A DNA stretch of 64,000 nucleotides from Candidatus Nitrosoglobus terrae. GTDB lineage: Bacteria; Pseudomonadota; Gammaproteobacteria; Nitrosococcales; Nitrosococcaceae. Both the position numbers and the translations under genes were made by a program. The notes beneath the pieces are model-generated. The model saw nothing but the letters and a program-made list of their open reading frames with translations, made no database searches and was not told the DNA's origin. Positions 1,926 to 3,470 of this stretch are shown here, piece by piece. Position 1 is the first letter of the stretch; every line of letters starts with the position of its first letter. The DNA is taken from contig NZ_AP014836.1 of assembly GCF_002356115.1 (NCBI RefSeq), positions 248,001 to 312,000 of the forward strand, given 5' to 3'.

Positions 1926-1981
1926 TTATCTAATTTTAGGATCTAAATTAGTGATGAGCTTTGATTTTAATAGAGCGTAGT

Positions 1982-3166
1982 ATGGCTAGCGGCAAACGAA
2001 AGCAAATTGAGGCTAAGAGCCTCTATTATATTACGCATAAGGACAATATCCCTTCTATACTCCGTTATGGAGTGCTTTCACACGCTAAGATCGAAGAGAG
2101 AGGAATCAAACACCAGTCTATTTACGATACTGAGATCGTCAGTAATAGACGAGGCAAAGAAACACCTGATGGCCGAAGTTTATGGGGGTTTGCGAACGTC
2201 TATTTCCAGCCTCGCAATCCCATGATGTATCGAGTAATCCATGAGAGAGGGCGAGATCACTTAGCTGTGGTAGCGCTAAAAAAAGATATACTTGACTGTG
2301 CTGGATTGTTCATTACGGACGGGAATGCAGCGAACGATGCGACAACTTTCTACGATGGGCAGCGGGGTGTCGAGGTTCTCGTGGAAACTTGGGGTATCAT
2401 TACAGGTGAGTGGTGGAATTCCACCGATGGCTCAAAGCGGAAGATCATGGCGGAATGTCTAGTTCCAGATACTATCCCACCTGAATATATCCATTCTGTC
2501 TACGTTGCGAATCATAAGATCGCTGACGAGTTACGTGAAAAAACTATTGGCCTAACTATACTGATTGTTCCTGAACCTAACTTATTTTTCTGCCCTACTA
2601 GTCATTATAAGATGACTGAAAAGCTTTCTTTGGTAGCAGGAGATATGTTTTTTTCTACTGCGCAAACACTAACTATAAGTGTTAATACGGTAGGTGTGAT
2701 GGGCAAAGGGTTAGCCTCTAGAACTAAATACCAGTTCCCGGATGTTTATGTTGTCTATCAGGATACATGTCGGCAAAAATTGCTTCGCATGGGGAAACCA
2801 TACCTATATAAACGTGAGGCTTCGTTTGACGAAGAGCTTATGGATGAGCCTAGCCTGATCTCTACCCCCAATAACGTTAAGTGGTTTTTACTCTTTGCTA
2901 CAAAAAATCATTGGCGTCGAAATTCTGATCTTCTGGGAATTATACAAGGCCTTGAATGGATACAGGAAAATGCTAATTCTTTGGGTATTCAGTCACTAGC
3001 AATACCAGCGCTTGGATGTGGCCTTGGTAACCTTAATTGGAAAGATGTTGGCCCCATTATGTGTCAACATCTACACAAACTAAACATGCGAATAATAATC
3101 TACTTACCGCGGGAAGGCACTATCCCAGAGGAGTATCTTAAGCCGGATTATCTATTGGCAAAATGA
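1982..3166 (+). CDS. DarT-DarG-like fusion: DNA ADP-ribosyltransferase plus macrodomain hydrolase in one chain
   Basis: Numbered from the possible TTG start at 1961; the ATG at 1982 is residue 8 and is the better start. Residues about 18-205 look like DarT: YYITHKDNIPSILRYGVLS at 22-40 and a KIMAECLVP segment whose E165 fits the catalytic glutamate. Residues about 220-385 look like a DarG macrodomain: NTVGVMGKGLA at 242-252, FATKNHWR with the candidate catalytic K315, and ALGCGLGNLNW at 350-360. DarT puts ADP-ribose on thymidine in single-stranded DNA and DarG removes it. The two are normally separate neighbouring genes, and fusion in one polypeptide is unusual. The C-terminal immunity domain found in many DarG proteins is absent. 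The 3' end overlaps the convergent Rieske gene by 29 bases. Confidence 0.85.
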   Translation: MASGKRKQIEAKSLYYITHKDNIPSILRYGVLSHAKIEERGIKHQSIYDTEIVSNRRGKETPDGRSLWGFANVYFQPRNPMMYRVIHERGRDHLAVVALKKDILDCAGLFITDGNAANDATTFYDGQRGVEVLVETWGIITGEWWNSTDGSKRKIMAECLVPDTIPPEYIHSVYVANHKIADELREKTIGLTILIVPEPNLFFCPTSHYKMTEKLSLVAGDMFFSTAQTLTISVNTVGVMGKGLASRTKYQFPDVYVVYQDTCRQKLLRMGKPYLYKREASFDEELMDEPSLISTPNNVKWFLLFATKNHWRRNSDLLGIIQGLEWIQENANSLGIQSLAIPALGCGLGNLNWKDVGPIMCQHLHKLNMRIIIYLPREGTIPEEYLKPDYLLAK

Positions 3167-3470
3167 TATCAATTTTATTATCGATTAACTTATATGATAT
3201 AGGTTTTAGATATTGTCCAATACAAGGACCGGCGATACAGAGGCCGTCTTCAAACCTGAATAAAGCCCCATGATTAGCACATTGAATATATTGGCCTGAC
3301 GTATCAAGGAACTGATCTACAACCCAGTTAAGGGTGATACCCATATGGGGACAATAATTTAGGTAAGCCCAGATTTGATCGTTTTGGCGAAGCATGAATA
3401 GATCTTGGCGATTTAAAGTAAACTCACGGGTGCCATGTTTGGGGAGATCATCTAAGTCGCATAAGAACAT
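3138..3470 (-). CDS. Small Rieske [2Fe-2S] ferredoxin
   Basis: This 110-residue soluble Rieske protein has both cluster-binding boxes: C40-x-H42 in NYCPHMGI and C64-x2-H67 in CANHGALF. Such stand-alone Rieske proteins carry electrons for oxygenases or reductases; no partner lies next to it. No signal peptide or membrane helix is seen, so it should be cytosolic. It starts 11 bases after the PfkB kinase gene and is probably the last gene of the adk operon. Its 3' end runs 29 bases into the convergent DarT-DarG-like gene. Confidence 0.85.
   Translation of the reverse strand: MFLCDLDDLPKHGTREFTLNRQDLFMLRQNDQIWAYLNYCPHMGITLNWVVDQFLDTSGQYIQCANHGALFRFEDGLCIAGPCIGQYLKPISYKLIDNKIDIILPIDNPA

Follow-up and report, generated by a model that had tools for sequence, protein, structure and literature searches.

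In split toxin-antitoxin systems, control is usually put down to a difference in amount or lifetime between the toxin and its antitoxin. In Candidatus Nitrosoglobus terrae, a DarT-type toxin and a DarG-type macrodomain are encoded as one polypeptide, and in such a one-to-one covalent pair unequal amounts or lifetimes cannot be the mode of control. How, then, could the toxin be restrained? The gene was studied in a window of 64,000 nucleotides (the whole stretch of DNA analysed), in which the following features bear on the question:

708-1925, + strand: argJ-like gene, left flank; adjoins Rieske/PfkB genes without DarTG in four genomes of the family
1982-3166, + strand: fused DarT-macrodomain gene, 394 aa, ATG start; TTG at 1961 as alternative start
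2024-2587, + strand: DarT (ADP-ribosyltransferase) domain, residues 15-202, from Pfam PF14487, alignments and fold
2453-2455, + strand: codon of catalytic Glu158 (earlier E165), aligned with E160 of Thermus DarT
2630-3118, + strand: DarG-type macrodomain, residues 217-379, from PADLOC DarG, alignments with 5M31/5M3I and fold
2819-2878, + strand: macrodomain insertion of the fused family, residues 280-299, net charge -5
2903-2905, + strand: codon of catalytic Lys308 (earlier K315; K80 of DarG), from alignments
3138-3470, - strand: Rieske [2Fe-2S] protein gene, right flank (Pfam PF00355, 9.9e-12)

A scan of the window for open reading frames found the fused frame open throughout, from 1961 to 3166. 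The N-termini of the homologues agree more closely with the first ATG, at 1982, than with the TTG at 1961, and the ATG was taken as the start because the seven residues added by the TTG are without counterpart in homologues; a good Shine-Dalgarno sequence is absent at both. Residues are numbered from this ATG, and nothing is encoded after the macrodomain in the 394-residue chain. An assembly or sequencing artefact is ruled out by intact single-frame homologues in several phyla and by the PDB entry 7OMU. Rpn proteins provide a precedent for a free antitoxin produced from an internal start; such an origin was rejected here, as there is no good Shine-Dalgarno sequence and no conserved Met at the domain boundary.

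Profile searches recovered both domains. The N-terminal half matched Pfam PF14487 over residues 15-202 (E 6.8e-46) and the PADLOC DarT model (1.4e-36), and the C-terminal half matched PADLOC DarG over residues 217-379 (1.8e-43) and Pfam PF01661 Macro (4.5e-5). On these profile scores, chance is excluded as the source of the matches. Scores against the NCBIfam models of split DarT (95.5 bits, equivalog cut-off 150) and split DarG (139 bits, cut-off 250) fell below threshold, as expected because the protein is divergent and shortened. The catalytic residues of DarT2 and their roles have been described (H-Y-E, R51, M78 and the base-contacting His119; PMC11543638), and in an alignment with them the triad is intact as H19, Y74 and E158, R56 stands for R51, and M81 stands for M78, the Met that contacts the oxocarbenium. 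Glu158 is invariant across the fused family, and Lys308 is a Lys in 22 of 22 fused proteins. The earlier note had read a DarT-like N-terminus with a candidate catalytic Glu and a macrodomain with a candidate Lys in one frame with no stop between, as well as the loss of the C-terminal part of DarG, and all of this has held up.

The thymine-contacting His119 of DarT2 is replaced in the fused protein by Asn115. DarT of M. tuberculosis (7YK3) has the same Asn, in the sequence DGNAA at the base-contacting site, and prefers thymine in a TTTW motif (PMC12170906); since this thymine modifier carries Asn, Asn115 is compatible with DarTG2-like function, and thymine is most likely the modified base as a default guess. 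A guanine specificity read from Asn115 by analogy with N104 of DarT1 was dropped, given that the M. tuberculosis enzyme modifies thymine with the same residue.

The macrodomain half differs from split DarGs in two ways. The residues that follow the macrodomain number 191 (median) in split DarGs and 0-6 in the fused family, the DarT-binding C-terminal domain of about 190 residues being absent in 22 of 22 intact fused proteins; inspection of the flanking frames in the window and in loci L007-L013 found no such domain encoded next door. In addition, the segment 276-301 spans 26-27 aa in 22 of 22 fused proteins but never exceeds 14 in true split DarGs, the sole outlier (L101) being itself a stop-interrupted fused copy. 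This fused-specific insertion of 15 residues is mostly acidic (net charge -1 to -6, with -1 in two members) and is only moderately conserved in sequence.

An AlphaFold model of the whole chain, built with 14 fused homologues (mean pLDDT 83.6, pTM 0.81), has an ART fold at the N-terminus, where the earlier note had placed DarT (its residues 18-205, counted from the TTG), and a macro fold at the C-terminus. The insertion is its least confident part (pLDDT about 40) and is not placed against DarT. The best PDB match, 7OMU (E 1.9e-131, residues 12-392), was made public in 2021 under the title 'Thermosipho africanus DarTG in complex with ADP-ribose' and is 52% identical to the fused protein over the whole chain. 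The model superposes on it with TM scores of 0.86/0.90 (rmsd 2.9) and, in a second alignment, with Z 45.9 and rmsd 2.2 over 373 of 376 residues, and the predicted two-domain arrangement is thus common to both. In both 7OMU and 7OMV, the deposited chain carries Ala at the position aligned with Glu158. In view of the invariant Glu of the fused family, the Ala was most likely engineered to inactivate the enzyme, and its apparent presence in the crystallised fused homologue is a hint that expression of the wild-type chain may still be harmful.

Fused DarTG is therefore a known but little-described kind, and the novelty implied by the earlier note does not stand, the fused form being widespread and already solved. 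A 2020 review still presented DarG as part of a strictly two-component operon (PMC7050489), and no description of 7OMU or fused DarTG was found in the literature searched, outside which the 2021 Nature paper on DarT lay. Match lists from VIA-align were dominated by macrodomains, and the absence of any other family from them is uninformative.

Besides the gene itself, 21 intact fused homologues of about 390 aa each were found, spread over six further phyla and one IMG/VR contig. A search for related loci gave seven intact fused proteins with 49-58% identity, from Calditrichota, Cyanobacteriota, Planctomycetota, Chloroflexota, Latescibacterota and Poribacteria. A pattern scan of IMG/VR added two truncated copies and a single full-length one, the latter at 60% identity. 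Surveys covered 292 genomes of Cyanobacteriota, 301 of Chloroflexota, 398 of Pseudomonadota and 294 of Planctomycetota; besides the seeds, intact fused copies occurred in 5/291 and 8/300 genomes of the first two phyla, and fused copies in 0/397 and 0/293 of the last two. Among the five from Cyanobacteriota, L069 has no clear start codon before the DarT domain. No similar DNA was found in E. coli genomes. A tally of the two architectures sets the 22 intact fused proteins beside DarT and macrodomain as separate frames at 18 loci in Pseudomonadota, 18 in Cyanobacteriota, 9 in Chloroflexota and 14 in Planctomycetota, counted in the fetched survey loci; a few of these are imperfect pairs or fused copies that are broken.

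In a tree of DarT, all intact fused rows fall within one branch (support 99/96), whose remaining rows are one solo DarT, two fragments from contig ends and copies that are truncated or interrupted by stops. A macrodomain tree made by a quick method gave the same picture. The simplest reading of these trees is a single fusion event followed by spread between phyla. Both active sites are invariant across the lineage, in seven phyla including that of the window. Truncated or stop-interrupted copies were seen in Cyanobacteriota and Chloroflexota (L070, L084, L092, L101 and L104). Among other arrangements, a tandem pair of DarT-like frames precedes one DarG macrodomain protein in L044 (132-2592) and L043, and a split DarT on the minus strand of L071 has a 223-residue N-terminal extension in frame, which may include a non-coding upstream frame.

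The setting of the gene in its own genome is simple. Four genomes of the family have argJ followed directly by Rieske and PfkB genes with no DarTG gene, and in a fifth argJ adjoins PfkB, again without it. In the nearest comparison (L019) the flanking stop codons lie about 15 bp apart, and the roughly 1.2 kb that the window holds at this place are thus a clean insertion of one gene. The Rieske gene runs towards the DarTG gene, and the two share 29 bp at their 3' ends (3138-3166). At 0.429, the G+C content of the gene differs little from the window mean of 0.424, which argues against a recent foreign-looking piece. In the window, the gene has no operon or island partner and lies outside any defence island, alone amid housekeeping genes. 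Profile searches of the genome gave one DarT-family and one Macro-family match, both of them the fused gene; DarT must therefore be tolerated without a separate DarG.

Most fused homologues are likewise standalone chromosomal genes with varied neighbours. In one relative (G003), a split DarTG is present elsewhere. Three others (L022, L096 and L097) sit in restriction-modification loci. On the IMG/VR contig (L022, 1381-5763), the fused gene is followed by an N6/N4 (Type III-like) methylase, a ResIII helicase and a TnsA-like nuclease, and in two Chloroflexota loci (L096, 804-4170; L097, 2-3349) it is closely flanked by methylase genes of the MmeI type and the Eco57I type, as in a restriction-modification operon. 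The latter setting is reminiscent of EPEC DarTG2, which lies within a Type I system (PMC12255303). Two phage contigs break off inside a fused-type DarT (L023, 5275-5496; L024, 6001-6096) and carry Mu-like portal, terminase and lambda-type head decoration genes; phages may thus carry fused DarTG. In a Poribacteria locus (L013, 5247-5897, + strand), a second, solo DarT of 217 aa lies directly upstream of the fused gene, has Leu at the position of Asn115 and is preceded by an HNH/WYL-domain protein.

Taken together, the intact active sites, the 7OMU fold, the single lineage, the lone DarT, the restriction-modification loci and the phage contigs support, on balance, a single-chain DarTG2-type defence enzyme in which hydrolysis in cis would restrain DarT until phage replication. 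The N-terminal DarT would use NAD+ to transfer ADP-ribose to single-stranded DNA, where the modified base is most likely thymine, and the tethered macrodomain would strip it off by means of Lys308. In the uninfected cell, low expression and hydrolysis in cis would keep net modification near zero. A phage that exposes much single-stranded DNA, or alters the levels of NAD+ or ADP-ribose, could then allow transfer to outrun removal, and replication would be blocked. The defence role is inferred from relatives, as split DarTG2 is an active component of phage defence (PMC12255303, PMC11481870). The self-neutralised defence switch of the earlier note is accordingly plausible in view of the invariant sites, the lack of a second DarT or macrodomain in the genome and the restriction-modification setting of some homologues, although no activity or phage defence of any fused DarTG was found in the literature searched. 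Its suggestion of cleavage after phage attack gained no support, since no conserved, cleavable linker forms the junction and the domains pack as in 7OMU.

Hydrolysis alone may not suffice as control, because the DarG C-terminal domain by itself counteracts EPEC DarT in vivo (PMC7003065). Another means of restraint, possible if doubtful, is an autoinhibited switch, in which DarT is held off mainly by intramolecular contact until a phage signal releases it; the packing of the domains would provide this contact, or the acidic insertion as a substitute for the lost C-terminal domain, or both. The joint occurrence of the lost C-terminal domain and the insertion in every fused protein would fit such a switch, as would the domain arrangement shared with 7OMU; the poorly modelled position of the insertion, its moderate conservation and its charge of only -1 in two members argue against it. 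The DarG C-terminal domain mimics single-stranded DNA. It is conceivable, as a rather speculative form of built-in control, that the insertion and the fixed packing act as an intramolecular DNA mimic that is displaced by phage DNA or protein.

A housekeeping or stress cycle of DNA ADP-ribosylation, placing transient marks on replication or transcription intermediates with no part in defence, appears unlikely. It would suit the standalone chromosomal site with varied neighbours, of this gene and of most fused homologues, and has a proposed precedent in DarTG of M. tuberculosis (PMC12170906), but the distribution in the sampled genomes is patchy, and the empty site, the broken copies in several genomes and the restriction-modification neighbours fit a defence gene better. 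A degraded system with one half inactive, which the loss of the DarG C-terminal domain might suggest, is very improbable, as both active sites are intact and invariant at about 50% identity.

On the preferred reading of hydrolysis in cis, fused DarTG isolates a question, namely whether DNA de-ADP-ribosylation without toxin sequestration is enough to control DarT. The fused pair has persisted and spread in at least seven phyla, outside the explanation by amounts or lifetimes, and the coupling of C-terminal domain loss with a fixed insertion is a point worth following.

Among known systems, DarTG of Thermosipho africanus (7OMU) has the same fused architecture and the same Asn at the base-contacting position; it differs in its host and in the Ala, probably engineered, that the deposited chain has for Glu158. 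DarTG1 (DarT1-NADAR of E. coli C7, PDB 8BAQ) has a related ART fold and also an Asn at the base-contacting position, but it is guanine-specific, its antitoxin is a NADAR protein where the fused protein has a macrodomain, and its match is much weaker than that of 7OMU (Z 17.7, E 0.008). CapRel-type fused toxin-antitoxins likewise hold both activities in one chain, with a phage trigger that acts on the fused pair (PMC11481870), although their domains are unrelated. Split DarTG2 of Thermus, M. tuberculosis and EPEC, a type marked by the reversible ADP-ribosylation of thymidine in single-stranded DNA, shares the H-Y-E transferase and a DarG macrodomain with the catalytic Lys, whereas it is encoded by two genes and its DarG keeps the C-terminal domain that binds DarT but has no 280-299 insertion. 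The fused protein probably works like DarTG2 and yet is a distinct fused branch from which the C-terminal domain is absent.
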